Part shown: positions 8,299-54,757 of the stretch, in pieces
Layout of the letters: every line of letters begins with the position of its first letter
Position numbering within the stretch: the first letter of the stretch is position 1
Assembly (NCBI GenBank): GCA_949152475.1
Contig: OX424561.1
Coordinates: 28,142,481-28,206,480, forward strand
Source: Terebella lapidaria
Taxonomy: Eukaryota; Annelida; Polychaeta; Terebellida; Terebellidae
Reading direction: 5' to 3'
DNA: 64,000 bases
The notes under the pieces: model-generated
Databases searched by the model: none
What the model saw: the letters and a program-made list of their open reading frames with translations, nothing else
What the model was told of the DNA's origin: nothing
Translations under genes and position numbers: made by a program

Positions 8299-8958
8299 AT
8301 GGAACACAACAGAAACTCAAATAATACACACTCTGCCCAGGTGGACGACTCGGACACTATGGATATGGATACTGATCCCTTATTCAAATCGATGTCTGCT
8401 TTTTCACGCGGTTTACCAGCAGTTGGTGACACACAAAAGGCGAAGGATAAGGGCGTACCACTGAGGAAGAGGAATCTACCTGCGTCGTTCTGGATTGAAC
8501 CAAATAGGCCGCGCTTGGAGAAGCAGTCGGGTGACCTATATGCTGCTTTCCATGGTTGTTATTTTGCACATCACGGTGACAATGGTGTCTGTAAAGATAA
8601 TTTACTTGAAGGGCATTATAGTTCTACTGGATATATGCAGCATGGTGTGTCACCAGTGAATAGTTTTCGCCGGTATCGCCACGCCAAGGATCCCGGAAAT
8701 TGTCAAGGTTTTGTATCATCATACTACCGGATTAACAGTGCTAGGCAGCTTAGAACGCCGTACCATGGTGGCCATATAGCGCCTCATGAAGAATTCGTGC
8801 AGACACCAGTGATACCATACAGTTTGTGGAACCAGCATCCCGTCGATGTCCAGAGGGAGAGCTTTCCGGATATAAGAACTCCAGTGCTCAAACCAGTGCC
8901 CACAAAGTCATTTTTGTCTTCTGGGTATAGATACCATCCATTTGCTCGTGTTCCCTGA
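8299..8958 (+). CDS. Candidate TEAD-binding omega-loop protein, YAP/TAZ-like without WW domains (unit 1)
   Basis: Intronless, 219 residues. Residues 24-35 (DTDPLFKSMSAF) resemble the first TEAD-binding helix of YAP (SETDLEALFNAVM). Residues 53-65 (VPLRKRNLPASFW) match YAP VPMRLRKLPDSFF at 9 of 13 positions, including the serine and first phenylalanine that contact TEAD. FWIEP recalls TAZ FFKEP and, from memory, the omega-loop of vertebrate FAM181. The middle (~80-190) is low-homology and rich in Tyr, His and Ser. The last ~27 residues, containing KPVPTKSFLSSGY and YHPFAR, are strongly conserved in the inverted copy. There is no WW domain, PPxY, HxRxxS (LATS site), coiled coil or PDZ-binding end. 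A TATA box lies 53 bp upstream and a possible ATTAAA signal at 9155-9160. It would act in the nucleus if it binds TEAD. Family membership is inferred from the motif; function is not established. Confidence 0.8.
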   Translation: MEHNRNSNNTHSAQVDDSDTMDMDTDPLFKSMSAFSRGLPAVGDTQKAKDKGVPLRKRNLPASFWIEPNRPRLEKQSGDLYAAFHGCYFAHHGDNGVCKDNLLEGHYSSTGYMQHGVSPVNSFRRYRHAKDPGNCQGFVSSYYRINSARQLRTPYHGGHIAPHEEFVQTPVIPYSLWNQHPVDVQRESFPDIRTPVLKPVPTKSFLSSGYRYHPFARVP

Positions 8959-10560
8959 AAATGTTGTTGCAAGGATTTCAACTGATATATATGTTTGGAA
9001 TATTACATTCGGAAGTGTTGTTTTTTGATTTTTTAGTTTTATCAATATTCCTGATGTGGTATCATTTTGAATGATGAGAGTTCAATTATGACGTGTCAAT
9101 ATTCCCAGTAATTATATAAAGCCCCTTTGTTCCCACTATTATATATTATATCCCATTAAACAATGTCACTACTTTCATTTCAAACATTCATTTTACACAC
9201 ATCAGGATTCACAGAAAATCAGCGTATGGCTCATCTTGCTGTTACAGATGATTTCGTAACATGATTTTGTTTATTATATCATATTCTGTAAAATATGGGT
9301 TTGATTATGCAAATTCTTTCTGCAAATTGTTCTAGTGCACCAAGAGTAATGGAACCATTGTCCTTGCTGCAATGATACATGCATTTATAGTGGCTATCGC
9401 GGTGTTTTCATCTCTGAAAGAACAATAGAACATTTTTCACAGTATTGTCATTGTTCTTAAAAGTCACTAAAATCTTATTTTGAAATCGTGGTTGATTTTC
9501 TATTTTTTTCAACAAAAACACACTTTGGGAATGGTGGAACCCGATCAATTCGACATAAACGTTTCGTGCTGTTGTATACACAAATATGCTGATTAACACT
9601 ATATACTGGTCAATTTTCAACATGTTTGGGTAACGAATTCAAAGATGGCCGCCAATGAGTTCAGGCAAATACGACCAAAAATCACAGCTTGATCCAAGTT
9701 TAACTACACTGGAGCCTGAATTCACGTATAACAGGGTATCCTGTTCGCTATTGTTGATTCCTGAATAATTTAGAATTATTGCCACATTTTACTGTTGTCC
9801 GGTAGGTAATCTTGTTGTATAATTGAAAATAATCCATACTTATAACAAGTTGCACTATTTATATACATTTTCAGGCATAAATTGTTGACTGGGTGCTTCT
9901 GATTTTGAAGAAATTTCACGGTTATTTTAAAAAGTTCTATTGCTTCATCCATCTTGTCATCATGAAAATGAATATTGTCATATAAATCATGCTTTCCCAA
10001 TTGCTGAAAAATATATATTGTGGAAACTGTGCTGTATGTGATATGTTGTATAATATTGTGTTATAAATTACTCTTATTCACTTATACTTCTATTCAAATA
10101 ATAAGTTGAATTGGTCTGCTGGTCAACGTTTAATATTAATAAAATCCTTTACACCAAGATGTTCGGATTTTGATGGATTTCGCGAACTTTTTGTGCATAA
10201 TCATGATAATCAGCCATTAAAAAATATTTGAGTTTGACACCACTTGGTACTCAATTCAGCATATTCTGGAATGATCAGAACCGTTGAGAAAACGTTTTTG
10301 GTGTAATCGAACCACCGACCATGTTTCCTGCACAATTTCTCAAATCTGAACTGGTCTATATGCGCAGTGTTCACTCAATATTTATAGCGACTTTCAATAA
10401 ATTATTGTGTTGGGGAATTGACAAATGATTGGAAGGAAACGGTGTATATTGTTTACAAACGAAGTACATTATAACATTAATCTGATGGTTTCCAGATTGG
10501 ATTAGTAAATTTATACTTGTATGCACTGTGTAATATTGTTGGATTAATTTCAGTGGGGAC
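8959..10560. other. Unit 1 spacer, no gene recognised
   Basis: AT-rich 3' flank, matched almost base for base in unit 2 (16157-17765). Short reverse-strand frames here (9408-9623, 9776-10000, 10371-10568) are shared with unit 2 only because the DNA is duplicated; none has a domain. Confidence 0.5.
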
Positions 10561-10760
10561 CATTCCAATAGCTGCCAGAATCGAGAAGAATTTGTCGCAT
10601 AACAGGCATAGCACTGGCTGACAGGCTACATTGCTGGGAGGACTGGCTGTGGTGACCTCTCACTGGCGGGTAATCATGACCCCTTCCAGAAAATCACATG
10701 CCTGGGATTCAGAAACCATTCCAGAAAACGCTCAGAATGTTTTTGGCAAGTCATATCCTC
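10560..10760 (+). promoter_or_regulatory. Conserved block 2 of the unit (unit 1)
   Basis: The word series gaatttgtcgcataacaggc, atagcactggctgacaggc, and atgcctgggattcagaaac recurs at 17765-17960 (+), 25745-25930 (+) and 53130-53340 (-), always 3' of the gene. No single reading frame stays open in all copies, so it is more likely noncoding (3' UTR, enhancer or RNA) than an exon. An exon of an unrecognised gene is not excluded. Confidence 0.5.
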
Positions 10761-10856
10761 CTCGAAGCAAAATTTCCAACAAATTCTCCCCAGCAGATTG
10801 ATTACATTGACATGGCAAGAATCCTAAGTTACTGTGAGGAAGTTTATCGTGAGTAC

Positions 10857-11205
10857 GGAGCCCCTGAGATAACATACCCGGTACTGGAAATATTTGTTAA
10901 GCCATGGGCACGAATTAGTATTTCGTGCGCACAGACTAATAAACAAATATTTCTAAAAAATAATGAAACAAAAATTACCACAAATATTTATGAATCCATG
11001 CACACACAAAACTAAATCGCGAACACAATTTGTAAAAAATATTTCTTGGTGTAAATAATGATTCATGGCCATGAAAATACGATTGCTAAATCGTGGGCAT
11101 GAATTATTACTTCGGTGAGCACGGTTCTACTAATTTGTGCGTATGACTTACTATTTCATGCCCACGAATTAATAAATATTTTTGATATGTCATTTCATGG
11201 GCTCC
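10857..11205. mobile_element. Hairpin MITE with subterminal repeats (unit 1)
   Basis: The arms are imperfect inverted repeats: GGAGCCCCTGAGATAACATA at the left and its diverged complement ending GGGCTCC at the right. They carry inverted copies of cgtgggcacgaattaRta. Length is ~350 bp with no coding capacity. A diverged copy at the same place in unit 2 (~18060-18390) has lost its outer ends. Confidence 0.6.
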
Positions 11206-11599
11206 ATAGTTAAGCGCTCAAAGAATTGTGGTTTATTGCAGGGATGGAGACATTGTTAACTTATTTGAAAATGTAACTGTAATTTGATCTTAAAGCACGG
11301 TTATTTTCTAAATACTGAAGTATGCACAGTCCCATGTTATGGGAAAGAAAAGATTCGTGTATTATGGATATATTACATATACATCACTATAATAAGACTT
11401 TGATGGCATGAATAGAAGGTACAAAACAGAGCACAATCAAACTCACTAAAGCTCGCCAAATGTGGTTTATAAGGATAGAATAATATCTTGTGAGAATCAT
11501 CGTTCACGCAGGGGCCATATTGAGAAGCCAAAGAAAGTATAACTCCATAACGATGTTTGTATGTGTTTCTCACCGTTGTCAATATTCAAAATACTCTGT

Positions 11600-14916: not shown

Positions 14917-15443
14917 TATATATCTATGGCTTGTATGCCAGCACGATATACATGTGCATAGGAGGAGAAACAGTGGTAAAGGCCGAGGCTAATTACCTCT
15001 TCTGATGCATCCTATGCATCTGTCATTTATTGACGTGTATAATACGCAACAACAAATAATTTCCCATCAATAATATGCAAATTACGTTATCGAACTTAGT
15101 CGAAACTACTGCTAGCACGGACACATTGGCTTGCTTCAGGCGCCCGCATGGGCTCACGGGCCAACCCTTACCCTAAGACATCCAACAGCCAAAGTAATCC
15201 GCCGAGGGATACGAGGGAAGGCTCTGGTGGTAGATGAGTGCAGCAACTGGACCAATCATTCGTCATGGACTGGACGGTGTAATAGCAAGAACGGTGAGTG
15301 CTGCTTACACTTTTCTTGAGATGAGATACTGATGACTTCCGAACTCTGAGATGATTTCAGAATGACACATGAGCAATGTTTGGCGACTCTGTGAAAAAAT
15401 TGAAAGTGCGATACATATGCGGAGCCGTTGGATAGATAATAGA

Positions 15444-15451
15444 TATAAAAG
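15444..15451 (+). promoter_or_regulatory. TATA box of unit 2 gene
   Basis: TATAAAAG, 53 bp before the ATG at 15497, as in unit 1 apart from small leader changes. Confidence 0.6.
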
Positions 15452-15496
15452 GGATGAGGCGCAGATGAAAAAAAAACACAGAAAGCGTTAAGCATT

Positions 15497-16156
15497 ATGG
15501 AACACAACAGAAACTCAAATAATACACACTCTGCCCAGGTGGACGACTCGGACACTATGGATATGGATACTGATCCCTTATTCAAATCGATGTCTGCTTT
15601 TTCACGCGGTTTACCAGCAGTTGGTGACACACAAAAGGCGAAGGATAACGGCGTACCACTGAGGAAGAGGAATCTACCTGCGTCGTTCTGGATTGAACCA
15701 AATAGGCCGCGCTTGGAGAAGCAGTCGGGTGACCTATATGCTGCTTTCCATGGTTGTTATTTTGCACATCACTGTGACAATGGTGTCTGTAAAGATAATT
15801 TACTTGAAGGGCATTATAGTTCTACTGGATATATGCAGCATGGTGTGTCACCAGTGAATAGTTTTCGCCGGTATCGCCACGCCAAGGATCCCGGAAATTG
15901 TCAAGGTTTTGTATCATCATACTACCGGATTAACAGTGCTAGGCAGCTTAGAATGCCGTACCATGGTGGCCATATAGCGCCTCATGAAGAATTCGTGCAG
16001 ACACCAGTGATACCATACAGTTTGTGGAACCAGCATCCCGTCGATGTCCAGAGGGAGAGCTTTCCGGATATAAGAACTCCAGTGCTCAAACCAGTGCCCA
16101 CAAAGTCATTTTTGTCTTCTGGGTATAGATACCATCCATTTGCTCGTGTTCCCTGA
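15497..16156 (+). CDS. Candidate TEAD-binding omega-loop protein, YAP/TAZ-like without WW domains (unit 2)
   Basis: Intact intronless 219-residue paralogue of the gene at 8299. Counting directly, the two coding regions differ at only three bases, and all three change the protein: K51N, G93C and T153M. The helix-like segment (24-35), the omega-loop motif (53-65, VPLRKRNLPASFW) and the conserved C-terminal tail are identical. The possible ATTAAA signal is at 16360-16365. It has the same absences as its sister: WW domains, PPxY, HxRxxS and a PDZ ligand. The near-identity points to a recent duplication or gene conversion. Expression and function are unknown; TEAD binding is inferred from the motif. 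Confidence 0.8.
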   Translation: MEHNRNSNNTHSAQVDDSDTMDMDTDPLFKSMSAFSRGLPAVGDTQKAKDNGVPLRKRNLPASFWIEPNRPRLEKQSGDLYAAFHGCYFAHHCDNGVCKDNLLEGHYSSTGYMQHGVSPVNSFRRYRHAKDPGNCQGFVSSYYRINSARQLRMPYHGGHIAPHEEFVQTPVIPYSLWNQHPVDVQRESFPDIRTPVLKPVPTKSFLSSGYRYHPFARVP

Positions 16157-17960: not shown

Positions 17961-18059
17961 TTCTCCTCGAAGCAAAAATTCCAACAAATTCTCCCAAGCA
18001 GACTGAATACATTGACATGGCAAGATTCCTAAGTTACAGTGAGGAAGTTTATCGTGAGT

Positions 18060-22380: not shown

Positions 22381-23170
22381 ATGGCGCGCACAGATTACTC
22401 AAATAGGACAAACTCCTCCAAGTGTGATGAACGGACACGGAGAGGGATACCTTATTCAAATAAATGTCTGCAATATCACGCGGTTTACCAGCGGTTGGTG
22501 ACAAACACAATGTGAAGGACAGCGGCGTACCACTGAGGAAGAGGAGACTACCCGAGTCCTTCTAGGTTGAGCCAAATAGACCTCGCATTGAGAAACATTC
22601 TCATGGCCTCAACGTAGTTCGCTACAAACAGTGAGGTAACGATGAGTCGAAATTTAAAGGTATTTTCTTGAATATTATCTCTTGCCAGATGACCTGTTTT
22701 ATAGAGTAAATGACCAACGTCCTAATATTGGAGAGAAAATAGGGGGTCACCGTGCTGGTTTCTTCAACATATTCGATCAAAATCACAAGCATTTACCTAA
22801 AATGACATAAATAATGGCATTTTCGCACATTTTGTTGTCCATTTTCACATCTTGCATCCTGTTTTTCATGCGAACGGATACGGTGACCCCCAATTTTCTT
22901 TTCAGTTTTAGGATACTGATCAGTTACTCTATAAAATATATCATTTTGAAGCTCTAGATTATGTTGATACAGTTATTTATTTAAAAAAAAACTCTGTGAC
23001 CCCCTCGCCTCACTGTTTGGAGTGGACTACCTTAAGATTACTGTTGCAATCACTATATGTGGCAAACAGTTTCACCAGTGGATGCCTTGTATACATTTTA
23101 CAAGACAAATGAAACTCGTGATATAAGATCTCATTTTGTTGATCTCATATGTTTTTCTCAATATGTTTTT
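22381..23170 (+). pseudogene. Broken copy of the TEAD-binder-like gene (unit 3)
   Basis: The aligned start (ATG at 22381) is followed by a frame disruption before the DPLFK segment. The frame then reads SRGLPAVGDKHNVKDSG and VPLRKRRLPESF, with an in-frame stop at the position of the tryptophan, then VEPNRPRIEKH. A TTAA-type MITE interrupts the gene at 22614-23031. Homology resumes after it: gtttcaccagtggatgcc (about 23070) matches the inverted gene's central part better than units 1 and 2. The omega-loop RRLP resembles the inverted copy (RRLP) more than units 1 and 2 (RNLP). The conserved C-terminal tail is not found. Confidence 0.8.
22614..23031. mobile_element. MITE inserted in the pseudogene, TTAA-type
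   Basis: About 418 bp. The left end GTAGTTCGCTACAAACAGTG and the right end (complement GGTAGTCCACTCCAAACAGT) form terminal inverted repeats. TTAA follows the right end at 23032-23035; the left flank is degenerate. A second copy lies in opposite orientation at 61215-61616. TTAA targets and short inverted ends suggest a piggyBac-driven nonautonomous element. Confidence 0.7.
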
Positions 23171-23693
23171 CAACTAAATATAATGTACAGTTATTTCGAA
23201 AAATGAGTATAAAGTATAAAAGTATAAAGTATTAAAGTGGGATAATCGGTTTTTGAAATTCGTTTGAATCAATTGGCAAGCGTTTATTGGTTGATATAGC
23301 ACCTTTACAACCCCAACATACCAAAAACATGAACGATGTGAACGAATTGTTTACATTTGCGCAAACATAAACAAAGACGTAAATTTCCTTATTGTGTCGT
23401 TATTTGCAACACAAAAGAATCAAACTGAATATTCGGGGTTTCATTATTATAATATACCATATATGTACACCATGTTTATACCATATTTTTCTATATTATT
23501 AAGTATTTTTGGTTACTATTGCATCACTGCATGAGAAACTATTTAAAAAATTCGATTTGCGATGTCAAGTTCAGATAAATTCGTATTTGCATTGGAACTT
23601 TTGCACTGTACAGGTGCTCTGAGGATATGTGGATATGAGTCACACACAACCACACACCAAGCCATAAATAAATTTGATGTGTATATGGGAATA
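23171..23693. other. Intergenic spacer
   Basis: AT-rich, with a short agtataaa repeat near 23209-23237. No gene is seen. Confidence 0.45.
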
Positions 23694-25619
23694 TACGGTG
23701 GCTTAATACCGCCAATTATATTCGTGCATTTCTCACCCCGTCTATAATTATCACCTCACAATATTCACCGCATTTATAATTCCCACCCCATCTATAATTA
23801 TCACCACAATATTCACCGCGTTTATAATTTCCACCCCATCTATAATTATCACCTCACAATATTCACCTAGTTAAAAAATATCCACCCCCATCTATAATTA
23901 TCACCTCACAATATTCACCGAGTTTATAATTTCCACCCCATCTATAATTATCACCTCACAATATTCACCGCGTTTATAATTTTCCACCCCATCTATAATT
24001 ATCACCTCACAATATTCACCGAGTTTAAAATATCCACCCTATCTATAATTACCACCTCATAATTATCACCGCCTTTGAAAATTTCCACCCCGTTTATAAT
24101 TATCACCTCACTTCATGAACATATGCAGCCCAAGAGCAAGAAGATGCTTATGGAAACGCCTCCATAGCTACTGCATTGAAGCGCATATAAGGATAGGTTC
24201 TTATATGTGGATTTGTGCATTTTCACAATATATCGAAAATTCAAAACATGTTCACTTATAAGGAGACGGCCTTTTATCCAAACATAAAACACCCCGTTTA
24301 TTCTTATATAAGGACACTGTATGCACTACTATAAACTGAAGAATTGGGGCCTAATTAAATTATTGGCGCAATTAATTTTGTCCCTTTGAGTGACACACAA
24401 TTCCTTGTAGGTCTATAACACATACATTCAACATGAATACAATTTAATTTCAAGACCACAAGAATATTCGAGATTAATATGCTGAACATGGTATACGTAG
24501 TGGTACGTGCTACATGTGTTCTAGTTGCGTCATTCTTCACAACTTATAATCATCGACATGCAAAATGTCCTTATATGTGGGTCAGATGTTTTACAGGCAG
24601 TTTCTAAAATAAGTTCTCATATAACAACATGTTCTTATGTCCGGATATAAGGAAGTGCTTATATATGAGGACATGTCCTTATATGCACGTCAATACAGTA
24701 CACAGAATACCAAGAGTGCTCATACTAAGACTCATGCAACAATTGAAATTCTGTACATAGTAATGATTGTTATGATCAAATCATATTATAAACTCGGTGA
24801 TAATTCTGAGGTGTTAATTATAGACGGGGTGGAAATTATGGATGGGGTGAAAATTGTGAGGTGATAATTATAAACGCGGTGGATATTATAAACGCGGTGA
24901 TAATTCTGAGGTGATAATTATGAACAGGGTGGGAATTATAAACGGGGTGAAAATTGTGAGGTGATAATTATAAACGGGGTGGAAATTATAAGCGCGGTGA
25001 TAATTCTGAGGTGATAATGATGAACAGGGTGGAAATTATAAACGGGGTGAAAATTGTGAGGTGATAATTATAAACGGGGTGGAAATTATAAACACGGTGA
25101 TAATTCTGAGGTGATTATTATGAACGGGGTGGAAATTATAAACGGGGGGAAAATTGTGAGGTGATAATTATAAACGGGGTGGAAATTATAAACACGGTGA
25201 TAATTCTGAGATGATAATTATCAACGGGGTTGAAATTATAAACGGGGTGAAAATTGTGAGGTGATAATTATAAACAGGGTGGAAATTATAAACACGGTGA
25301 TAATTCTGAGGTGATAATTATGAACGGGGTGGAAATTATAAACGGGGTGAAAATTGTGAGGTGATAATTATAAACAGGTGGAAATTATAAACGCGGTGAT
25401 AATTCTGAGGTGATAATTATGAACGGGGTGATAAATATAAACGGGGTGAAAATTGTGAGGTGATAATTATAAACGGGGTGGAAATTATAACACGGTGATA
25501 ATTCTGAGGTGATAATTATGAACGGGGTGGAAATTATAAACGCGGTGAATATTATGGGGTGGTAATTATAAATGGGGTGAGAAATACACGAACGTAATTG
25601 GCGGTAATGAGCCACCGTA
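23694..25619. mobile_element. Foldback-type element 1 with ~50 bp minisatellite arms
   Basis: The termini are inverted: TACGGTGGCTTAATACCGCC at the left, and TACGGTGGCTCATTACCGCC when read from the right, extending ~45 bp to TTTCTCACCCC. Inside are two inverted tandem arrays. The left (about 23740-24115) and right (about 24790-25590) are built of ~50 bp units. The right arm alternates two variants (ending aattct or aattgt), giving a ~100 bp higher-order period. The ~680 bp centre (24116-24790) has no recognised gene. TA flanks both ends. It is noncoding and so nonautonomous. Confidence 0.8.
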
Positions 25620-28750: not shown

Positions 28751-29916
28751 TCACATTATCTTACAGAAGAACATCGTGGTGTCAGAACATTGCACATTGA
28801 TCCACGACCAGCTCACGGATTTGTTGGCTTGTATACAGGTGGGATGGGGCCCAAAAATCGGATATCCTACAAGCCAATTGTCAAAAATGTTGATGTCGTA
28901 TAAGGAACCATCAGGTAAGAAGATGTAGGGAGTTGCGGGGGGCAGCTGACCAGCAAGCCAGAACCTCTCTTGTCCATGGTCCTCTAAAAATGTTTGGTGT
29001 TCTAACAAATGTTCATATTTTCGATCGAAGGCATAGCGGTCGTTACCATGTTCACTACTTTTCTGAACATATTACACCACCAAGAAAATACGATTTTATT
29101 CTGACCATCCCCCTCCCAACTCCATGTAAAATACTAGAGTAAATCAAATGCGTATATGTATGGTGATCCGTACCGGCTATCTGGACAAAAGCTTGATGAT
29201 CCGCCATGGAATACACCGTGGCCAGCTGGGCAGCTGGGTGGTACTTTTGACACATCTGTGCAGCCTCGAGATATTTCGAACCAAATCCATACATGTAGCA
29301 GACACTTTGGTCTGGACAGAATCCTGCAATGCAACGTACATTAGTCATTGCCATACATCCGCTATATAAAATTCGAAGAGAAAGTGGAGAATCACATGTG
29401 GCCCCAAACACAGTTTACTTGACTAGTGGCTATATGTTATTTGTCTGCTGGAATTTCATTTAGCATCACCTAACTGAAACGGTGTTCAGGCTCATATATT
29501 CATGTATAATTATAGTTGTCTCTGTTCGGATTCTATGAATCTATCTCTGCTCTAAACAGGGTAATAATCAAAAGACAAACGTTCTGAAACTTACGATTCA
29601 AATGCTCAAAATACTGAAATCCAGTAGCTCCGATAATATCGCTCTGTGTTGAAATTTCGTCTATGATGTGGCAATCTCCACGGTCCTGGGAAGTTTCGAT
29701 CCAGTTAAATCCTTCGCAGTCCTCCATGGTACAGTAAGCGGCACATTGGGCCTTGGATGTGGTGAAGACATCACTGCTGGGCCTGTTTGATTTCTCGTTA
29801 TCTCCGTACAACTTCACGAAAACTCCCGAAGTCATGTTGGCTTCGCCAGAGTGAACAAAAGTGGTGCACGACAGAACCCCAGCACAAAAGAGGATGATCT
29901 GCATTGTGGTGGCCAT
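28751..29916 (-). CDS. Secreted PAN/apple plus C-type-lectin-like protein, copy B (three exons)
   Basis: A 234-residue sister of copies A and C. Exons read 29916-29595, 29323-29174 and 28983-28751. Introns are 271 and 190 bp, GT-AG and phase 1. The signal peptide spans ~1-23, followed by an NMT sequon. The PAN/apple-like domain has C-x3-C-x4-C-x14-C, with EGFNWIETSQDRGDC in its second half. The lectin domain follows: CPDQSVCYMYG, EAAQMC, FWLAG, WSWINVQC and MFFCKIM. No EPN, QPD or WND motif is seen. TATAAAG at 29946-29952 sits ~31 bp upstream of the ATG. It is closer in sequence to copy C than to A. It is probably secreted; the ligand is unknown. Confidence 0.87.
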
Positions 29917-29945
29917 GTTTCATAATAATTTGTACGAATGAGATC

Positions 29946-33435: not shown

Positions 33436-35629
33436 TACGGCGGCCCAATGCTGCCATTATTCATGCCTGAGTTAAGAGTAGTTTTGAAATCAGTTTCATA
33501 GTTAGTAAACATTTATTTTCAGTTATGAAACTAGTTTCTAGCAAGGCACAAACCCTTTACACCCGGCACAAACGTTTTTAGCAGGGTGTAAACCTTTCTA
33601 GCATGGCACAAACCTTTCTAGCACGGCACAAACCTTTATAACAGGGCATAAACCTTTATAACACGGTACAAACCTTTTCAACATGGCGCAAACCTTTATA
33701 ACGGGGCGTAAACCTTTACAGCAGGGCACAAACCTTTTTAACACGGCACAAACCTTTATAGCAGGGCACAAACCTTTATAACACGGCACAAACCTTTTTA
33801 ACTTGGCGCAAACTTTTTAGCCCGGCACAAACCTTTTTAGCATGGCACAAACCTTTATAACACCGCACAAACCTTTATAGCTGGGCACAAACCTTTTTAA
33901 CATGGCGCAAACCTTTATAACGGGGCAAAAAACTTTTCAACACGGCACAAACCTTTATAACAGGGCATAAACCTTTTTAACACGGCACAAACCTTTATAA
34001 CAGGGCATAAACCTTTTTAACACGGCACAACCCTTTATAGCAGGGCATAAACCTTTTTAGCAGGGCACAAATCTTTATAGCACGGCACAAACCTTTATAG
34101 CATGGCACAGACCTCTATAGCATGGCAAAAACCTTTTTAACACGGCATAAACCTTTATAGCAGGGCACAAACCTTTATAGCATGGCACAAAACTTTACAG
34201 CACGGCACAAACCTTTTTAGCAGGGCGCAAACCTTTATAGCACGGCACAAACCTTTATAGCAGGGCATAAACCTTTTTAGCAGGGCGCAAACCTTTATAA
34301 CATGGCACAAACCTTTATAGCAGGGCACAAACCTTTTTAACACGACACAAACCTTTATAGCAGGGCATAAACCTTTATAACAAGGCACAAACCTTTTTAA
34401 CTTGGCGCAAACCTTTTTAGCAGGGCACTAACCTTTTTAGCAGGGCACAAACCTTTATAACACGACACAAACCTTTATAGCAGGGCATAAACCTTTTTAT
34501 CATGGCGCAAACCTTTATAACATGGCACAAACCTTTATAACAGGGCATAAACCTTTTTAGCAGGGCACAAACCTTTATAGCACGGCACAAACCTTTATAG
34601 CAGGGCATAAACCTTTTAGCAGGGCGCAAACCTTTATAGCAGGGCATAAACCTTTTTAACACGGCACAAACCATTATAACAAGGCACAAACCTTTATAAC
34701 ATGACACAAACCTGTTTTACACTGCACAAACCTTTGTAGCACGGCACAACCCCTATGTTGTAAAGGTTTGTGCTGTGATAGATAGGTTTGTGCCATGCTA
34801 GAAGCTAGTTTCATGAAAAAAACTGTTTACTAACTAGGAAACTGATTTCGAACCTACTCTGCTAAAAAGGTTTGCGCCCTGCTATATAGGTTTGCGCCTT
34901 GTTGAAAAGGTTTGTGCCTTGTTAAAACGGTTTGTGCCGTGTTGAAAAAAGGTTTGTGCCCTGCTATAAAGTTTTGTGCCGTGTTAAAAAGGTTTGTGCC
35001 CTGCTATAAAGGTTCGTGCCGTGTTAAAAAGGTTTGTGCCCTGCTATAAAGGTTTGTGCCGTGTTAAAAAGGTTTGTGCCCTGTTATAAAGGTTTGCGCC
35101 ATGTTAAAAACGTTTGTGCCCTGTTATAAAGGTTTGCGCCCTGCTATAAAGGTTTATGCCCTGCTATAAAGGTTTGTGCCGTGTTAAAAAGGTTTGTGCC
35201 CTGCTATAAAGGTTTGTGCCGTGTTAAAAAGGTTTGAGCCCTGCTATAAAGGTTTGTGCCGTGTTAAAAAGGTTTGTGCCCTGTTATAAAGGTTTGCGCC
35301 ATGTTAAAAAGGTTTGTGCCCTGTTATAAAGGTTTTCGCCCCGTTATAAAGGTTTGCGCCATGTTAAAAAGGTTTGTGCCGTGTTATAAAGGTTTATGCC
35401 CTGTTATAAAGGTTTGTGCCGTGCTAGAAATGTTTGCGCCATGCTAGAAAGGTTTGCACCCTGCTAAAAACGTTTGTGCCATGCTGGAAAGGTTTGTGCC
35501 GGGTGTAAAGGGTTTGTGCCTTGCTAGAAACTAGTTTCATAACTGAAAATAACTGTTTACTAACTATGAAACTGATTTCAAAACTACACTTAACTCAGGC
35601 ATGAATAATGGCAGCATTGGGCCGCCGTA
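33436..35629. mobile_element. Foldback-type element 2 with ~20 bp minisatellite arms
   Basis: Terminal inverted repeats of ~130 bp begin TACGGCGGCCCAATGCTGCC on both ends. The arms are inverted arrays of a ~20 bp unit (acaaacctttataacacggc and variants): left about 33540-34750, right about 34755-35525. At 34788-34860 the centre repeats part of the terminal segment (ctagaagctagtttcat, ctgtttactaacta), as if two elements were joined. Long reverse-strand frames (33598-33789, 34155-34388, 34417-34707) are read-through of the repeat and not genes. It is inserted in the long-TIR transposon. Confidence 0.82.
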
Positions 35630-35780
35630 ATCAACAGTATGCATTGCAACATCATAATGCATATGTTTATATTATTTTCTTTCCATATTCTTGTCTTCAT
35701 ATTTGGAAAATGAGCAAAATTAACATGTACACTATACACAATCATAATTATTACGTGGACATACCTAAATTATTTGTAAA

Positions 35781-38090
35781 TTATACCTAAACTAGTAACT
35801 CTACCTCCGTTGAAACTATTTGTGAATACACGTTTGCAAGATATAGTGCTAAAAACTGACGAAGTCAAGAAGTCGCTCTTGTCCCTCAATATAAACAAGG
35901 CTACCGGATCTGATGGCATAAGCAGCCGCCTACTGAAGAATGCAGTCGATGTTGTCTTGCATCCACTTACCTCAATTTTCAACCAGTCTCTTCGAACTGG
36001 TATTTTCCCGTCAATCTGGAAAAAGGCTAACGTTACACCAGTGTTTAAAAAGGGTGATAGACAATCTAAAAACAATTATCGACCGATTTCCTTGCTGCCC
36101 ATCACCGGTAAACTGCTTGAAAAATTAGTTTTCAATCATCTTTATGAGTACTGTAAGCAAAACAACATACTTACTTGGCGAAATTCAGGTTTTAAGCCTA
36201 TGGATTCTGCGATGAACCAGCTCGTACACATAACTCATAAAATATATCAATCTCTTGAAAACGGACAAGATATCATTATGGTTTACCTAGACATATCGAA
36301 GGCTTTCGACAGAGTATGGCACTCCGGTCTCCTCTATAAATTGAAATCCCACGGTATCGGTGGCAACTTACTTAAATGGCTAACAAGTTATCTGTCAGAA
36401 CGCCAACAGCGTGTCGTTTTGAATGGCAAACACTCTGACTGGATAAACATCCAGGCAGGCGTGCCCCAGGGCTCTGTACTTGGGCCGCTTTTATTCTTGT
36501 TTTTTATAAATGATATTGTCAACGATATCGGGTCCGACATATTCCTGTACGCTGACGATACGACGCTAATGAAAGTGGTAACGGATCCCGTGCATAGTAT
36601 CTATGAACTCAATAATGATTTGTTCAGATTAGAAACATGGGCGCGTCAATGGTTAGTCACGTTTAGCGCGCCAAAATCCGAATGTATGGTCATTTCTAGA
36701 AAAAGGAAGCGGCCAGCTTACCCACCTATAAATTTCTTTGCAAATAAATTGAAAGAAGTACAGGTACATAACCATTTGGGTGTTTTAATATCCTGCAATA
36801 TGAGTTGGGAAAATCACATCCGTTATCGAATAGAGAAAGCATCCGTTGTGACTAATATGTTGACCAGAACATCTCGTGCGATACCCAGAAACTGTAAAGA
36901 AGCTATTTATACGTCGTTTATCAGACCATTACTCGAGTACGGGTGCATGCTATATGACAACTGTCCAGCCTACCTGTCTGAACTCTTGGAACAAAGCCAA
37001 CGGGTAGCAGCAATCGCGTGTACCGGCGCCTATCGTCATACGAGTCACACTCGCTTATTAAACGAACTGGGCTGGTCATCTCTACAGAAAAGAAGACACT
37101 ATTATAAGTTATGCTTGATGTACAAAATAGTTCATGATCTGACCCCATCTTACCTTACGTGGGTCATTAACGACATTCAAACGATTAGAAATTACATACT
37201 CCGTAACAGTAACGAACTTGATATACGTCCCCCCATGACGAGAACTGTCTGTTTCTCGAACTCTTTCTACCCATCGTCTATTAGGCTATGGAACAGTACG
37301 AGTGTAACATTAAGGTCGATGCCCTCTCTTTCATCTTTCAAACGCCTACTAAAATTGAGTCTGTTTCCAATTACTAATGAGATTTATTCTTTTGGATATG
37401 GCATGGGACAAATACACCATTGCAGAATACGAATGGGTTTAAGTGGGTTAAACAAGCAACGATTTACGTACAATTTCATAGATTCACCCATATGCTGTAA
37501 GTGCGGCGTCCAGCCCGAAAGTCCCTTGCATTTCTTTCTCGAGTGCCCGCAATACAACGATGCAAGACGACATATGCTTTCTCACATCTTACCTTTGCTC
37601 AATATAGAGCAAACTTTTGCCACGTTTACTACCGCCGATAAACAAAATCTACTGCATTTTCTTCTAAGAGGCTGTTCTGCGTTGACATACTCGCAAAACA
37701 CCAGCATGTTTATTAGTGTATTTAGGTATATTGAAATGACAGGCAGATTTGATACTGTACTATCATAACTAACATTTTTATGTTTATGTAAATCATTCCT
37801 TTATTTCACCTATCGCATGACCAATGTGATATCGATTTTTAAGTAAGTTTGTATTGTACCTGTACCTGTAGTCTTACTAAGTACTAACTGTAAATGGCTT
37901 GTGTAAATAAGTATACGTTCTTCTGTTCTTGATTTTTGTATATTTGTTGTATTGGTTAGTTATGTTCTTACCTTACGTCCCTGCCCGGTAACACATAATG
38001 ATCTTGTTGAGGAGAGTACCTCGTGCCTTTACCGGCGTGTATGATCCTCCGTAAATAAATTTGTTATACAAAAAAAAAAAAAAAAAAAAA
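35781..38090 (+). mobile_element. 5'-truncated LINE (Jockey/CR1-type non-LTR retrotransposon)
   Basis: It has an insertion of about 2.3 kb, with TTATTTGTAAA at 35770-35780 and TTATTTGCAAA at 38091-38101 as a target duplication with one mismatch. It ends in AATAAA (38054-38059) and a poly(A) run of about 21 bases (38070-38090). The endonuclease half is missing, as expected from 5' truncation. The reverse transcriptase part is open throughout, so the insertion is young. It lies inside the long-TIR transposon, 150 bp past the foldback element. Confidence 0.9.
35783..37768 (+). CDS. LINE ORF2, reverse transcriptase part, N-terminally truncated
   Basis: About 660 codons open from the element's truncated left edge to the stop at 37766-37768. 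No true start exists; the frame runs in from the flank. Visible RT blocks are NYRPISLLP, the motif A LDISKAFDRVWH, the motif B GVPQGSVLGPLLF, the motif C catalytic YADDT, and LGVLIS (motif E region). The C-terminal part includes a CCHC knuckle, CCKCGVQPESPLHFFLEC. This order is that of Jockey-superfamily elements. Lacking the endonuclease, this copy should be unable to start its own insertion; the RT frame itself has no stop. Confidence 0.88.
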   Translation: MPKLVTLPPLKLFVNTRLQDIVLKTDEVKKSLLSLNINKATGSDGISSRLLKNAVDVVLHPLTSIFNQSLRTGIFPSIWKKANVTPVFKKGDRQSKNNYRPISLLPITGKLLEKLVFNHLYEYCKQNNILTWRNSGFKPMDSAMNQLVHITHKIYQSLENGQDIIMVYLDISKAFDRVWHSGLLYKLKSHGIGGNLLKWLTSYLSERQQRVVLNGKHSDWINIQAGVPQGSVLGPLLFLFFINDIVNDIGSDIFLYADDTTLMKVVTDPVHSIYELNNDLFRLETWARQWLVTFSAPKSECMVISRKRKRPAYPPINFFANKLKEVQVHNHLGVLISCNMSWENHIRYRIEKASVVTNMLTRTSRAIPRNCKEAIYTSFIRPLLEYGCMLYDNCPAYLSELLEQSQRVAAIACTGAYRHTSHTRLLNELGWSSLQKRRHYYKLCLMYKIVHDLTPSYLTWVINDIQTIRNYILRNSNELDIRPPMTRTVCFSNSFYPSSIRLWNSTSVTLRSMPSLSSFKRLLKLSLFPITNEIYSFGYGMGQIHHCRIRMGLSGLNKQRFTYNFIDSPICCKCGVQPESPLHFFLECPQYNDARRHMLSHILPLLNIEQTFATFTTADKQNLLHFLLRGCSALTYSQNTSMFISVFRYIEMTGRFDTVLS

Positions 38091-39066: not shown

Positions 39067-40192
39067 ATAAACAAACTCAAACTATCTCCACCAGATACTA
39101 GCAACGAAATCGATTAGAAAAGGGCATCTGTTTGGGCATACAAGTGCAGATATATAACTTTTATGTTTTCTTCGTTCGATCTGAAATATATGGCAGAATT
39201 CATAACTGCCAATGTCACTGTAAACAATATCGTGAATATATGCAAAGAGAAGCAAGTTGGATATGTGCTTCTATTTTTAACTTATTTTTCAACTTATTTG
39301 ACATTCCAGATAATGACGACTTAGAGTTATGCTTTTATATCTACAAAGTTTCTGCTTGATAGTAACACATTTCTAAACCTTCAGAGCCTCAGAATTCACC
39401 ACGAGACACCATGAGGTTGTTTCTCCACTCTGTTCCCCGGTCACTGTGATTATCTTGATCATCAGTGGGATGTATAGATGGTTTGCTATTGCTCAACTCG
39501 ACACCATTTAATAACAAAAGAATTGACTTGACGGCAACACCTTGAGTGGGCGGCAATACAATACTGATCCCCTTATCAAAACAGGATTATAACGTCTGCG
39601 AATCATCTATATAAGATATCACTCTCTTTACAAGCTCCTATATTCATCACACCACGGTGGTACAGTCAAACAGAAACAACACGGGACAAATCTGATAAAT
39701 AGCAAACTATTTGGGCATAAAACAACGCCCCTGCATAAAACAACGCCCCTATATAGAGGCATATCAATCGTGACATGTGATATGTGACAATAATTCCTAT
39801 TTAGATTGATGTAGGTGCAATCTGCTATCCATCTGACCATTTATTGGCATGATCAGTTCTTTTGTGGTTGCTTGTTCCGCAATACAACATAACCAAACCC
39901 AAGAGCTACAATGGTTCCATTTGCAATGTACACATACTCAGCCAGAAATGTATTTACTTTGTCCATGGTCTAACACAGATGCTGTGCGCGTTGCTTCATT
40001 ATATTGTCGTATTCGTTTGTGGTCCCAAGCAAATATACCAGGACGGATGTATCCGGTGCATTACCGGAACCCAGGGAGAGAGGCTCAGGTACCTTCCTGC
40101 TTTCATTGCTCTCAGTACAATAAGTTCTCTCATGAGTAGGATGGGGAAATAATCTCGTTCATTCAAAAAAGTATATAGCTTGATACACCACA
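39067..40192. other. Intergenic, upstream of lectin copy C
   Basis: No gene is seen. Two overlapping 96-codon frames at 39849-40152 have no domain. TATATAG at 40172-40178 lies only ~15 bp before the ATG of copy C, too close for a standard TATA box unless the start is shifted. Confidence 0.4.
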
Positions 40193-41154
40193 ATGGAAAT
40201 CACACTATTTTTCACTTGGTTTCTATGGTGTACACTTTTTGTACATATACACTGTGGTGAATCCAACATGACCTCAGGCGTCTTCATGAAACTTTACGGA
40301 GATGACAGGAAATCAAATAGACCGAGCAGTGTGGTCTTCACTTCATTCAAGGCTCAGTGTGCTGCCTACTGCAGTAGAGAAGATTGTGAAGGATTCAACT
40401 GGTTCGAATCTGTCCAGGACCGTGGAAATTGTCATATCATGGACGAGGCTACAATACAGACTGATGTTGTCGTAGCTACTGGATTCCAATACTTTGAACA
40501 CTTGAATCGTCGTAAGTTACAGAAGATTTGAATTTTGGCTATCAGTCTGGCGTTCTTTGTTCCATCAAGTATGTTTATTTTTTTCCGCGAATGTTACATC
40601 AGCATTCTAATGTGAACGTATATATATCGTCGTTTTACAGGGTTTTGTCCGGACCAAAGTGTCTGTTACATGTACGGATTCCGAGCGGAGTACCTCGAGG
40701 CTATACAAATGTGCCAGAGGTATCACCCGGCAGCCCAGCTTGCAACGGCGTATTCTACGGCGGAGCATGATGCTTTTGTCCAGATAGCTGGTAGGGAGCC
40801 CTATTCCATGAATTTTTTTTCTTATGAATTAGTTGACAGATTTTCTGCATTGTTCAGAAAACTAGTTTAACTTTCTGGTAACAGAATAAATTTGTCAAGG
40901 TTTTTTTCTCAACATTTTCAGAGGACCACGGACAGGATGAATTTTGGCTTGCTGGTCAGCTGACGCCGATGTTTTCACAAACCTACACCCCTGATGGCTC
41001 CATATACGATATGAATATTTTTAACAAATGGCTGAATGGCTATCCATTGTCTCAGTCTTACCCCACCTGCATCCGGGCCATCGAAGCAGAAGGCTGGTCA
41101 TGGACCAATTTACCGTGTTCTGACCTCGTAATGTTCTTCTGTAGAATACTGTGA
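40193..41154 (+). CDS. Secreted PAN/apple plus C-type-lectin-like protein, copy C (three exons)
   Basis: A 233-residue protein. Exons are 40193-40511, 40641-40790 and 40922-41154, with the shortest introns of the family (129 and 131 bp), both phase 1 and GT-AG. The signal peptide spans ~1-21 and an NMT sequon follows. The PAN/apple-like domain keeps C-x3-C-x4-C and ends GNCHIMDEA. The lectin part carries CPDQSVCYMYG, EAIQMC, HPAAQLATAYS, FWLAG, WSWTNLPC and MFFCRIL. Exon 2 is exactly 150 bp in all three genes. No calcium-site EPN or WND motif is visible. A foldback element begins 83 bp after the stop and could supply the 3' UTR and poly(A) signals. Confidence 0.87.
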
Positions 41155-43925: not shown

Positions 43926-44262
43926 TATTTCTACAGAAAATGACAGTTATAGCCTAAATAAAAAAAATTTGAATATAAGCTTCTTTAGAAACGGCACGAA
44001 AAAGCAACAAACTATTGCCTTAGTAGGTGGTGAGCTGAAGAGAGTAGGCTGCATATCCTGATCCAAGGTTGAACTTGGACTTCACTTTCAAGATCAGAGC
44101 TCAGAATGGCTAATATTTCGCTTATTATCGACTTTACAGCTCAGAAATCAATTGTGGACATACAGGAAATGATATATGCTGAATATTCTCATGACCTTTA
44201 ACTTGAACTTTGCCTCATTTTCAAGGTCAGAGCACAAAATGACTAGTATCTTGCTTATTATC
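43926..44262. repeat. Degenerate ~135 bp repeats preceding the duplication
   Basis: Segments such as cttgacctttgacctcattt, caaggtcagagcacaaaatg and gaaatgatatatgctgaata recur about every 110-140 bp from 44070 to 44480 with divergence. This is an older tandem repeat from which the 1.17 kb unit was built. Confidence 0.5.
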
Positions 44263-46612
44263 AACTCGACCGTTTGGGAATAAATAGATTGTGTACATGT
44301 AGGAAATGATATAAGCTGAATATTCTCCTGACCTTCAACTTGACCTTTGACCTTATTCTCAAGGTATCTAATATTTCGTTTGTTATCATCTTCATGGCTT
44401 AGGAATCAATTGCGAACAAATGAAATGATATATGGTGAATATTGTTATGACATTGAATTTGACCTTTGACCTCATTTTTCCTTCATAATTGGAGCTTTAC
44501 GGAGTGAATTCCTAGAACACTTAAATATTGGCTCCTACAATACTCCGAGCTAGAGCCCAAATATTGGCAGTATAAAATGGGAAATCATATGTTACAATTT
44601 CAGTGGTGACCTTAAATTTGATCTTCAATAACCTTAAGGTCAATACATCAATTTTAATTAATAAAGTTACGCTTTATAACTAAACACTTTTACGTTATCC
44701 TTTCTTAGCCCTTGGACTAATTTTTCCCGAAACTCATGGAAGGAAGAAAATTCTCCAGTTGTGTGACGATGAGTTTACTTCGAGAATACATTTGGCAGGG
44801 AGAGCACATTTTCTTCAGTGACCATGTGATTTAAAGTATTCACCAAGAATATCACTGGACGTCTCCCCCAACGGAATATACCAGAAGGTTTCATCATTTC
44901 TCTGGGTTTCCCCTTATTGGGACGGGGTATGAATGGGAGTAAGTTCGATCTTCTCGACAAGGGCTGGCGCTTTGAAGGCAGCGGAATTGGCATATCGAGA
45001 TGACAGCCTGGAAAATTTCATTCACTTTATTCTTCATAATGTGATCTGTATGTAGTAAACTCCCAGAACACTTCAAGATGAAGCTTATATATTTTATTAT
45101 GCTCATATGCAGAAGCCATATTGGTATTATTTTAGTCACCTCGCATCTAGAAGATATTTGTTGTGCCAAAGAATATGTCATTAACGAAAAAAAAAACCTT
45201 TCAAGATGTCACTTGATTTCGGCAACATTCATGTTTTGACAATAGAGTTGAAGATCGATGTAACAATTTATATTTTGGAACATCAATACTCTCACGATTC
45301 TTATGTGCAATTCTCATGATCTGCCAATAATCTACAGGAGCCTTGGTGCTATGTTTCTAAGGTGGCAGAATTGTCATGAATTTAATAGAGATCATACTAA
45401 GGTGTCAGTATGGTCATAAATTTAATGGAGAAAATATACCAACTCGACCGTTTGGGAATAGATTGTGTACATGTAGGAAATGATATAAGCTGAATATTCT
45501 CCTGACCTTCAACTTGACCTTTGACCTCATTCTCAAGGTATCTAATATTTCGTTTGTTATCATCTTCATGGCTTAGGAATCAATTGCGAACAAATGAAAT
45601 GATATATGGTGAATATTGTTATGACATTGAATTTGACCTTTGACCTCATTTTTCCTTCATAATTGGAGCTTTACGGAGTGAATTCCTAGAACACTTAAAT
45701 ATTGGCTCCTACAACACTTCGAGCTAGAGCCCAAATATTGGCAGTATAAAATGGGAAATCATATGTTACAATTTCAGTGGTGACCTCAAATTTGATCTTC
45801 AATAACCTTAAGGTCAATACATCAATTTTAATTAATAAAGTTACGCTTTATAACTAAACACTTTTACGTTATCCTTTCTTAGCCCTTGGACTAATTTTTC
45901 CCGAAACTCATGGAAGGAAGAAAATTCTCCAGTTGTGTGACGATGAGTTTACTTCGAGAATACATTTGGCAGGGAGAGCACATTTTCTTCAGTGACCATG
46001 TGATTTAAAGTATTCACCAAGAATATCACTGGACGTCTCCCCCAACGGAATATACCAGAAGGTTTCATCATTTCTCTGGGTTTCCCCTTATTGGGACGGG
46101 GTATGAATGGGAGTAAGTTCGATCTTCTCGACAAGGGCTGGCGCTTTGAAGGCAGCGGAATTGGCATATCGAGATGACAGCCTGGAAAATTTCATTCACT
46201 TTATTCTTCATAATGTGATCTGTATGTAGTAAACTCCCAGAACACTTCAAGATGAAGCTTATATATTTTATTATGCTCATATGCAGTAGCCATATTGGTA
46301 TTATTTTAGTCACCTCGCATCTAGAAGATATTTGTTGTGCCAAAGAATATGTCATTAACGAAAAAAAAAACCTTTCAAGATGTCACTTGATTTCGGCAAC
46401 ATTCATGTTTTGACAATAGAGTTGAAGATCGATGTAACAATTTATATTTTGGAACATCAATACTCTCACGATTCTTATGTGCAATTCTCATGATCTGCCA
46501 ATAATCTACAGGAGCCTTGGTGCTATGTTTCTAAGGTGGCAGAATTGTCATGAATTTAATAGAGATCATACTAAGGTGTCAGTATGGTCATAAATATAAT
46601 GGAGAAAATATA
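44263..46612 (+). repeat. 1.17 kb recent tandem duplication
   Basis: Unit a (44263-45440) and unit b (45441-46612) are nearly identical, both starting aactcgaccgtttgggaat. Differences are a 4 bp deletion near the start of b and a few substitutions. Reverse-strand frames at 44775-44993/45949-46167 and 44894-45181/46068-46355 are identical between units only because the DNA is duplicated; no domain is recognised. Confidence 0.88.
44341..44353 (-). promoter_or_regulatory. DR1 nuclear-receptor-like motif
   Basis: TGACCTTTGACCT is the complement of AGGTCAAAGGTCA, the direct repeat spaced by one base that RXR/HNF4-type receptors bind. Further copies are at 44460-44472, 45515-45527 and 45634-45646, all part of the repeat. 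Binding is not shown by sequence alone. Confidence 0.45.
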
Positions 46613-51840: not shown

Positions 51841-53129
51841 CAGTATATCACCCTCAGAATGCATGGTCATTGGTACGCGTTATTCAAACAGTGAAATGTA
51901 TCTCTACCTGCAAGAGATCAAGAACAAAATGCACCTCCCCTGCAGTGCAGTGAGCTACGCATGCGGCAGTGCCATGTCACGGAACAGCGGGCAAAATTAC
52001 CAGAGTGAAAATCACAGTCGGTATCATGGGTACAATTTATCAGTAGATGTCAGTTACAAATTGGTATCACTCAGTATCATTCTCTGTGAGCCAGACCGAT
52101 TATGTCACTTGCTGATATCTTTAAAATATGTATCTTGATATATATAAATCTTGAATATATCTTGAATGTCCAAGTCTTTGTACCTGAGGGAAAATCCTTC
52201 CCTAAAACAAAAACAAAAATTAGATCTTACATGTTTTGCTTATACTTCATTGGTGTTTATTTTGTGTGGTCTACTTTGACCAGCGATATGGATAGATATC
52301 ACTCTCTTACTTGCGTACTGTCTGATGTCCATACTTTGAACTCCTATTTATTGTAGTAATTTTGGTAGATCAAGGAGTTTGTTCAATAACATGTGATGAT
52401 TTCAGGATTTTCCCAATTTAAAGACATCCAGACTTTGAGGTTTCGGATGATTACATGTGATTCATCAAACACACAGAAATCATTTTTGTCCATTTATACT
52501 CAGTTCTTTGATAGGCCAAACTTGAACATGTTCTGTAGCAGGTGCAGATGATCAGACATTATAAGATGAACCATATCAATTATTATAAAAAATACCAGCA
52601 ACATAAGAAAAACTATGCATTGATATTCAATATTTTTATTCACTTTTAATGTAAATATAAAAACAACAAAATTCACGACTTTGCACACATCCATTTCCTA
52701 CAGGACTTGACGAAGTATTGAGGAGAGGAGTTGCATAGTCTTACCAATGTTGTTACAATTCTGTTCACATTGAATATGAAGGTGTGGAATGCAGTGTCTT
52801 CTTTTTTTAAAGCTGAAATCCATTCTTAAGTAGCACATTTGAATGGAATGTTTGGATGTGCGCTCAGATTCATTTCAGCTTTTTTCTTTTGATTCGCAAT
52901 ATTTCAAATACAATGTAATTATATCTTAATCTTAATATGGACTTAATAAAAAAAATCATTACCATGTATTCAACTCGTGCAATCAAACTACAGTTATCTT
53001 TCCAGGAAAATACGAGGGTTGCATCTCCAAAAAGCGTTCTTTGAGCGTTCCAGCAGATCTAACGGACAGTAAACTAGCATACTTGTGTGTTGTCAGTATG
53101 ACCTGTGGGGCGAGAAAACTGTATGTATC
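51841..53129. other. Unit M2 spacer, no supported gene
   Basis: Part of a 136-codon plus-strand frame (51728-52138) has a polar stretch (SGQNYQSENHSRYHGYN) that looks composition-wise like protein, but it has no domain or second copy. A 66-codon reverse frame at 52983-53183 is open in this unit only. Confidence 0.4.
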
Positions 53130-53340
53130 GCAACGGCTTCGGATAATGACTTGCCGGAACATTCCGGCCGTTTTCTCCAACATGTTTCTGAATCCCAGGC
53201 ATTTGACGTATGAGGAGTCACGCTTATTCTATGTTGAGAAAAACATTGCTAGTCCTGCCAGCATTGTAGCCAGTCAGCCAGTGCTATGCCAGTTATGCGA
53301 CAAATCCTCCCATTCATGACAGCTACTAGATTAGTTCCTA
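53130..53340 (-). promoter_or_regulatory. Conserved block 2 (inverted unit M2)
   Basis: Minus-strand gaggatttgtcgcataactg, gcatagcactggctgactgg and aatgcctgggattcagaaac match the blocks of units 1-3. Confidence 0.5.
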
Positions 53341-54103
53341 CCGAAAGTATGTGCGTGCAGAGGGAAAGGTGATTTTCAAACGCCATGATCAAGAATGCAA
53401 AACATAATATTTTTATAGGTGTAATAACGTTCAACATACATGTGGGCAAAATTATTACAGTGAAAGTATTAGTGAAAGTAAAGAAAAATTAGTGAAAGTA
53501 AATAGATTTGTAAGTTTTCATGGAGAAGAACACATAGCTCTGATCGAGAACACTACTATGTTAACCATGATTATCATCACAGCCAATTCCGGTTGCAATG
53601 GAACAAATGGCATAATCAATTAACAAAAGACTCAAATAGAGAAAACAATATGAAAGAAATAGGCCTACCTAATTACAGAGTCATACCAATGACTGAATCA
53701 CTAATGGTCGTCAATGATTCCGTGTACATTGTAATATTATGAATCAACAGCTGCTTGCGTGCGCCATTTTTATGTGTGTATAAATTAGCACCATCGTGGA
53801 ATATGATATCCCATTATAAACTACGAACAATATGACTACATATTATGCGAATATATATAATATTCAGAAATAATTGACATCGTTCAACAAATAACAAAGA
53901 CAATGAGTCAATAAATTATGCGATATCATTTTATAATAAACCACAGATATGTATATACACATCATTTAACATGCGACACACCAATATATCCGCACCTTAC
54001 AAATACCAAAGCACCACTGGACCTGTGAATAATAACGTCGAATACTCCACTTCAGAAAGCAAAACCAACCTGTATAAAACCAGATGAACTGTCTGATGTT
54101 TCG
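53341..54103. other. 3' spacer of the inverted gene
   Basis: AT-rich and shorter than the ~1.6 kb spacer of units 1 and 2. No gene is recognised. Confidence 0.45.
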
Positions 54104-54757
54104 TCAGATAATACGTGCAAATGGATGGTATTTATGTCCAGAAGACAAAAATGATTTTGTTGGGACTGGTTTATGCACTGGAGTTCTCATTTCTAGAATG
54201 TTGGCCCTTTTGAGATGGATGGGAGGCTGGTTCCGGAAACTGTATGGGTTGAGTGGTGTCGGCAGTGCTTCGTCAACCGACACTGCCTGGCCACCATCGT
54301 AGTATGGAATTCTGGAGAACCTGTTACTGTCAAATGGAAAATAAGTTGGTACAACACAATATCCTGAGTCCTTGGTATTGAAGTATCCATATAAAGCATC
54401 CGCTGGCAATACACTTCGCTGTATACAACCATTGAAACTTTGAGACCCATACGGTGAAATGTCATTACTTGCACCATTGTCACTGTAATATGCCGGCTGA
54501 CAGTTATGGAAAGCTGCATAGGAGTCACTTGAGTGTTTCTCCAAGCGTGGCTTATTGGGCTCAATCCAGAACGACGCAGGCAGCCTTCGTTTCCTCAAAG
54601 GTACGCCGTTGTCCTTCACATTGTGTGTGTCACTCACTGCCGGTGTACCACGTGAAAAGGCAGACATTGATTTAAATAATGGATCGGTCTCCAAATCCAC
54701 AGTCACAGTGTCGAAATCGGGGAAACCTGTGTTATGTGGGTCCGTCTTTTGCTCCAT
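54104..54757 (-). CDS. Candidate TEAD-binding omega-loop protein, YAP/TAZ-like without WW domains (inverted unit)
   Basis: Intact intronless 217-residue paralogue of the genes at 8299 and 15497. Residues 22-36 (LETDPLFKSMSAFSR) and the omega-loop VPLRKRRLPASFW with IEPNKPRLEKH are almost unchanged. The middle (~85-185) has diverged heavily. The last ~25 residues (RTPVHKPVPTKSFLSSG then HKYHPFARII) are again conserved. This pattern, two constrained ends and a free middle, indicates long-term selection on a short linear protein. The ATG context (ttaagRatt before ATGGA) matches the other copies, but no TATAAAAG is present. There is no WW domain, PPxY or HxRxxS site. TEAD binding is inferred. Confidence 0.82.
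   Translation of the reverse strand: MEQKTDPHNTGFPDFDTVTVDLETDPLFKSMSAFSRGTPAVSDTHNVKDNGVPLRKRRLPASFWIEPNKPRLEKHSSDSYAAFHNCQPAYYSDNGASNDISPYGSQSFNGCIQRSVLPADALYGYFNTKDSGYCVVPTYFPFDSNRFSRIPYYDGGQAVSVDEALPTPLNPYSFRNQPPIHLKRANILEMRTPVHKPVPTKSFLSSGHKYHPFARII

Follow-up and report, generated by a model that had tools for sequence, protein, structure and literature searches.

A 64-kb window of the annelid Terebella lapidaria (contig OX424561.1, positions 28,142,481 to 28,206,480; 38.4% G+C) holds a multi-copy family of small genes, with three intact open reading frames (ORFs), here called A, B and D, and one dead copy, C. The family is real and constrained, and every copy encodes, or in C still recalls, an omega-loop of the kind that YAP uses to bind TEAD. 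The products are likely to belong to the FAM181/PERCC1 group, to be disordered for the most part and to bind TEAD, forming a small family that would escape Hippo control and compete with YAP/Yorkie or modulate it. TEAD binding is the function for which the sequences argue best. A sequence-only reading of the same DNA had described the proteins as YAP/TAZ-like; the loop that it recognised is there, but its closest counterpart lies in FAM181A.

The omega-loop and its nearest counterparts

All three intact proteins match the Pfam model TEADIR3 (PF15238) above its gathering cut-off of 26 bits, with 31.6 bits for A and B and 30.2 bits for D (hmmscan expectation values, E, of 1.8e-7 for A, 1.7e-7 for B and 4.9e-7 for D), and hmmscan reports no second Pfam family for any of them up to E 10. 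These results bear out the earlier assignment of a TEAD-type omega-loop with a profile match above background, and likewise the stated absence of a WW domain; PPxY and the LATS-type motif HxRxxS are also missing from all three. The same model is matched by residues 50-100 of YAP (34.6 bits) and by a provisional FAM181A sequence (33.8 bits), and TEADIR3 therefore identifies the type of loop without distinguishing between families. The loop pattern PxxxRxLPxSF[FW]xxP is present in 3/3 intact copies, and P...R.LP.SF[FW*]..P occurs four times in the six frames of the window, once per copy, C being included with its stop.

Residue by residue, the loop points to FAM181A, since 13 of its 16 residues are identical to those of human FAM181A (PDB chain 6l9f_C) and nine to those of YAP. 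When the three proteins were combined into a profile covering residues 19-81 of A and this was run against all solved chains, FAM181A ranked first (E 1.1e-5), followed by Vg (0.41) and YAP (0.43-0.96). Single-sequence searches with phmmer found FAM181A, with YAP chains absent up to E 10, and FAM181A is thus the nearest solved chain. The window proteins are probably relatives of the little-understood vertebrate FAM181 proteins rather than a new YAP, and the label ‘YAP/TAZ-like’ needs correcting. In a chimeric peptide described in PMC10620186, a FAM181A-derived stretch with VPMRKRQLPASFWEEP provides the binding to TEAD4.

The residues of the YAP and Vg loops that contact TEAD are given in section 6 of PMC7566471. 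Counterparts of the contacts named there can be assigned in A as L55/M86, R56/R87, R58/R89, L60/L91, S63/S94, F64/F95 and W65/F96, the YAP number standing second. The serine that matches YAP S94, an AMPK site (PMC9710580), is thus retained as S63.

Conserved blocks and the history of the array

The earlier count of three intact genes and one pseudogene is confirmed by the ORFs of A, B and D and by the two stops in C (Table 1). The interval given for D was also correct, the strand having been left out: the plus strand of this region has many stops, and the reading frame is found on the minus strand alone. Copy C retains 68% protein identity to A across its recognisable piece (E 6e-20) before a repeat interrupts it; the limits and inverted ends of this repeat were judged by eye, and a second copy of it lies at 61211-61618. 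Beyond the insert C remains collinear, at a level that is not significant alone (23039-23191 against A, E 2.8; 23048-23116 against D, E 0.60). Each gene is likely to have a single coding exon, because coding sequence was not found directly upstream; an upstream coding exon was considered for A and D and rejected, as stops break all three sense frames in both.

Table 1. Positions of the gene copies and associated features within the window
Feature	Position	Strand	Description
Upstream stretch of A (-928 to -243)	7371-8056	+	aligns with D, 462/735 columns identical
Tract of A near-identical to B	7733-10432	+	23 mismatches/2689 sites (0.86%), ~2.7 kb, gene included
TATAAAA	8246-8252	+	53 bases ahead of the ATG of A; likewise B at 15444
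Copy A	8299-8958	+	intact ORF, ATG to stop, one exon, 219 amino acids
Interface-2-like block of A, TDPLFKSMSAFSRGLPAV, residues 25-42	8371-8424	+	dN/dS 0.047 against D
Omega-loop (interface 3) of A, VPLRKRNLPASFWIEP, residues 53-68	8455-8502	+	Pfam, phmmer, profile search, loop comparison
Conserved C-terminal block of A, TPVLKPVPTKSFLSSGYRYHPFARVP	8878-8955	+	dN/dS 0.29 against D
Copy B	15497-16156	+	intact ORF, ATG to stop, one exon, 219 amino acids
Omega-loop of B, VPLRKRNLPASFWIEP	15653-15700	+	Pfam, pattern search
Copy C, pseudogene piece	22434-22610	+	two in-frame stops, omega-loop still recognisable
Repeat inserted in C	~22608-23034	+	limits approximate
Copy D	54104-54757	-	intact ORF, one exon, 217 amino acids, 53% identity to A
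C-terminal block of D	54107-54184	-	family consensus TPVxKPVPTKSFLSSGxxYHPFAR
Omega-loop of D, VPLRKRRLPASFWIEP	54557-54604	-	Pfam, pattern search

Constraint is concentrated in two short blocks. In the ratio of non-synonymous to synonymous substitution rates (dN/dS) between A and D, block 25-42, which includes DPLFKSMSAFSRG, gives 0.047 (8 synonymous and 2 non-synonymous changes) and the block of the loop, 52-75, gives 0.052 (10 and 3), against 0.45 for the N-terminus, 1.05 for the linker (few sites), 0.65 for the middle, 0.29 for the C-terminal block and 0.43 for the whole, with dS at 0.70. The two motif blocks differ from the rest with a Fisher p of 5e-6, an optimistic figure because the blocks were defined once the A-D alignment had been seen. 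The first of them contains a helix-like segment 23 residues ahead of the loop, and TDPLFKSMSAFSRG is the same in A, B and D; this segment is likely to provide a putative interface-2 contact. The A and B proteins differ at three residues, and the three coding differences between the genes, all non-synonymous, are too few for any inference.

The part of the protein that follows the loop has no Pfam match, and its conserved C-terminal block went unremarked in the sequence-only reading. This block contains VLKPVPTK in A and B, which may correspond to VLKPIPTK in the C-terminal part of a provisional human FAM181A sequence (VLKP[IV]PTK). In a longer alignment with that sequence, the C-terminus reaches a score equalled by 0/5000 shuffles for A and B and by 753/5000 for D, although the comparison may be biased because the FAM181A sequence was written out with the window protein already known.

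The near-identity of A and B is confined to a tract that includes the gene. Outside this tract the realigned A and B units mismatch at 8.1% of sites on the left, at 9.3% on the right and at 9.9% and 9.1% further right, and two more matching pieces found beyond it by blastn have 43 mismatches in 563 gapped columns and 21 in 155. The simplest reading would be that the units duplicated long ago and that gene conversion, or a homogenising process to the same effect, acted recently on A and B, which would owe their likeness to it. A and B are then not independent witnesses, and the evidence for constraint comes from a single independent comparison, between two lineages. D lies ~38 kb further along, inverted. 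The description of the family as expanding holds only in part, since the array is old (~8-10% mismatch between realigned units), one copy is dead and the likeness of A and B stems from recent homogenisation.

Within the stretches compared, the A-D alignment ends downstream at the stop codon, while the alignable DNA upstream of the two genes could be conserved promoter DNA. The TATAAAA found ahead of A and B has no equivalent in the ~130-150 bases scanned before the corresponding places of C and D. MCAT (TEAD) sites were considered as a sign of self-regulation and rejected; within 1 kb upstream there is one for B and none for A, C or D, and the window as a whole has 0.53 per kb.

Wider searches and neighbouring sequence

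Pattern searches for relatives gave 36 matches in the viral_contigs collection and 103 in genome_contigs, with none confirmed in either; these collections hold viruses and prokaryotes, and so say little about animals. In the literature searched, no tandem or lineage-specific expansion of a TEAD cofactor resembling the window array was found, a paper on salmon vgll3 being the sole match, and FAM181 was not found paired with ‘intronless’. With whole A as query, phmmer also returned five tissue factor pathway inhibitor chains over residues 130-163 (E 0.21-2), which were taken as chance.

The window has 364 stop-to-stop frames with at least 55 codons, and the Pfam survey covered 102 of them, mostly long ones, so that small exons may be missed. 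A 166-codon frame antisense to A (8061-8558) was left out of the survey, its near-identical counterpart in B (15259-15756) being included. One weak match each was obtained to DUF4930, zf-RING_15 and GPI2 (E 0.004-0.007). No TEAD gene was seen within the window.

Elsewhere in the window, a rhodopsin-type G-protein-coupled receptor at 4511-5532 (+) is split, with 7tm_1 positions 4-190 in one frame and 195-260 in the next, and is a pseudogene, a gene with an intron or the product of a sequence error. Three single PAN_1 frames (846-1232, +; 29536-29919, -; 40184-40528, +), whose DNA is 73-75% alike in two pairings, are scattered exons or repeat remnants. A 20-base satellite of ~2 kb forms two oppositely oriented blocks (33535-35530 and 35780-37765, +) and adjoins a 662-codon reverse transcriptase frame (RVT_1), and a 50/100-base satellite is likewise arranged in oppositely oriented blocks (23728-24111 and 24785-25585). 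A tandem duplication of 1.18 kb, at 99% identity, occupies 44259-46612.

Relation to known TEAD cofactors and proposed function

YAP/TAZ, FAM181 and PERCC1 are united in PMC9710580 by their TEAD interfaces 2 and 3; the figure legend there names WW domains for YAP1 only. According to the same source, PERCC1 has homologues in echinoderms, molluscs, annelids and chelicerates, and FAM181, which has a named member in Capitella, possesses an N-terminal conserved region besides interfaces 2 and 3. A review (PMC10146773) restricts the binding of FAM181A to interface 3 and regards its function as unclear. FAM181A and FAM181B co-immunoprecipitate with TEAD4, but it could not be established in HEK293FT cells whether they influence TEAD-driven transcription (PMC12672301). 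The sequence-only reading, which knew of no comparable family, did name FAM181 as an analogue but not PERCC1; its claim of a YAP/TAZ-like family with nothing comparable was too strong, because both are already in print as YAP relatives with interfaces 2 and 3.

Set beside these cofactors, the window proteins share with FAM181A the loop and, as far as was found, the lack of a WW domain, but their genes are multi-copy within one array and the proteins carry a conserved helix-like segment ahead of the loop. By description, PERCC1 resembles them in combining interfaces 2 and 3 and in having members in several invertebrate phyla, and differs in carrying N- and C-terminal conserved regions of its own (figure legend of PMC9710580). 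With YAP, TAZ and Yorkie they have in common the order of helix, linker and omega-loop and the same Pfam loop model, whereas WW, PPxY and HxRxxS are absent from them and, compared with YAP, the linker is longer (23 residues versus 14 by hand count) and the loop just 9/16 identical. Vestigial and VGLL2 also combine a helix with an omega-loop, and a tryptophan occupies the last aromatic position in the window proteins as in the Vg loop, but the VxxHF Tondu core is absent. The proteins appear nearest to FAM181A and would work like it, as candidate rather than established members of that family; they may be seen as a variant of the known cofactors of the FAM181/PERCC1 group, and a new YAP/TAZ branch is not supported.

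Several observations weigh against this assignment. The helix-like segment, claimed before to be a helix ahead of the loop, is indeed conserved, but it reads TxxLF in A, B and D, with LxxLF nowhere in the three proteins, and its similarity to a set of interface-2 stretches from YAP, TAZ, FAM181B and PERCC1 (small and in part provisional, the YAP stretch alone being confirmed) beats shuffles marginally, with p 0.04 for A and 0.11 for D. A monomer model places its first helix at residues 27-36 with very low confidence; confidence is low throughout, with a mean predicted local distance difference test score of 34, which makes the model unusable for a fold search. FAM181A and FAM181B are without a helix in the review PMC10146773, contradicting PMC9710580. 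The N-terminal region of FAM181 was not found in the window with a provisional query from one member, human FAM181A, the best tblastn match having E 0.13 and lying inside a satellite. Finally, no relative was confirmed outside the window in the viral and prokaryotic collections, so that conservation is judged from two intact lineages, A/B and D.

The FAM181/PERCC1 assignment has nevertheless to be set against other origins for the motif. Duplicates of YAP or Yorkie that degenerated until the TEAD-binding region alone was left, as decoys, would account for the helix-then-loop order and for the recovery of YAP by the loop in the profile search. They would not be expected to rank below FAM181A in loop identity and in both the phmmer and profile searches, or to have a conserved C-terminal block without a Pfam match, and the WW domain was not found by hmmscan; we think this origin unlikely. 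The match to Vg raised a different prospect, in which FSRGL is what is left of the Tondu helix (HFSRAL), with the omega-loop coming after it as in Drosophila Vg. Vg chain 6y20 was the second chain match and aligned from FSRGL to SFW (E 0.27), and an omega-loop has been proposed for the ancestral VGLL gene (PMC7566471). However, VxxHF is missing from 3/3 proteins, the segment scores at shuffle level against the Vg helix (p 0.50 and 0.53) and the profile search aligns only the linker and loop to Vg. The Tondu reading was accordingly rejected as the leading one, and descent from Vestigial/VGLL is the least probable of the alternatives weighed here.

The motif might also be an omega-loop look-alike serving another partner, TEAD binding not being its function. 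The shortness of the family and its unexplained conserved C-terminal block fit such an idea, but the counterparts of the side chains with which the YAP loop binds are kept and few parts of the protein are as constrained as the loop, and the idea seems quite improbable.

For proteins of the FAM181/PERCC1 group, a simple mechanism can be proposed. A putative short amphipathic helix, PLFKSMSAF, would dock in the interface-2 groove of TEAD, and the omega-loop VPLRKRxLPASFWxEP would occupy interface 3, which YAP/Yorkie also uses. Since WW, PPxY and LATS-type motifs are lacking, the usual regulation by the Hippo pathway would not reach the protein, which, where expressed, would compete with YAP/Yorkie on TEAD or modulate it locally. 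Competition or weak modulation seems more likely than strong activation, because the sequence is loosely constrained outside the contact and C-terminal blocks and has no further Pfam domain. The C-terminal block TPVxKPVPTKSFLSSGxxYHPFAR may serve to contact an additional partner.

More tentatively, the window may contain an array, specific to this lineage, of minimal TEAD ligands that are blind to Hippo signals, each with a helix, an omega-loop and a new C-terminal module, with conserved upstream DNA and with A and B gene-converted, whose dosage sets YAP/Yorkie output, and which would be a multi-copy counterpart of FAM181 and PERCC1. The value of the finding depends on binding, on expression and on the other TEAD cofactors of the species. 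The array poses the question why one lineage multiplied such a gene, and it would show in a natural setting whether an omega-loop protein that receives no Hippo inputs acts as an activator of TEAD or as a competitor of YAP on it.

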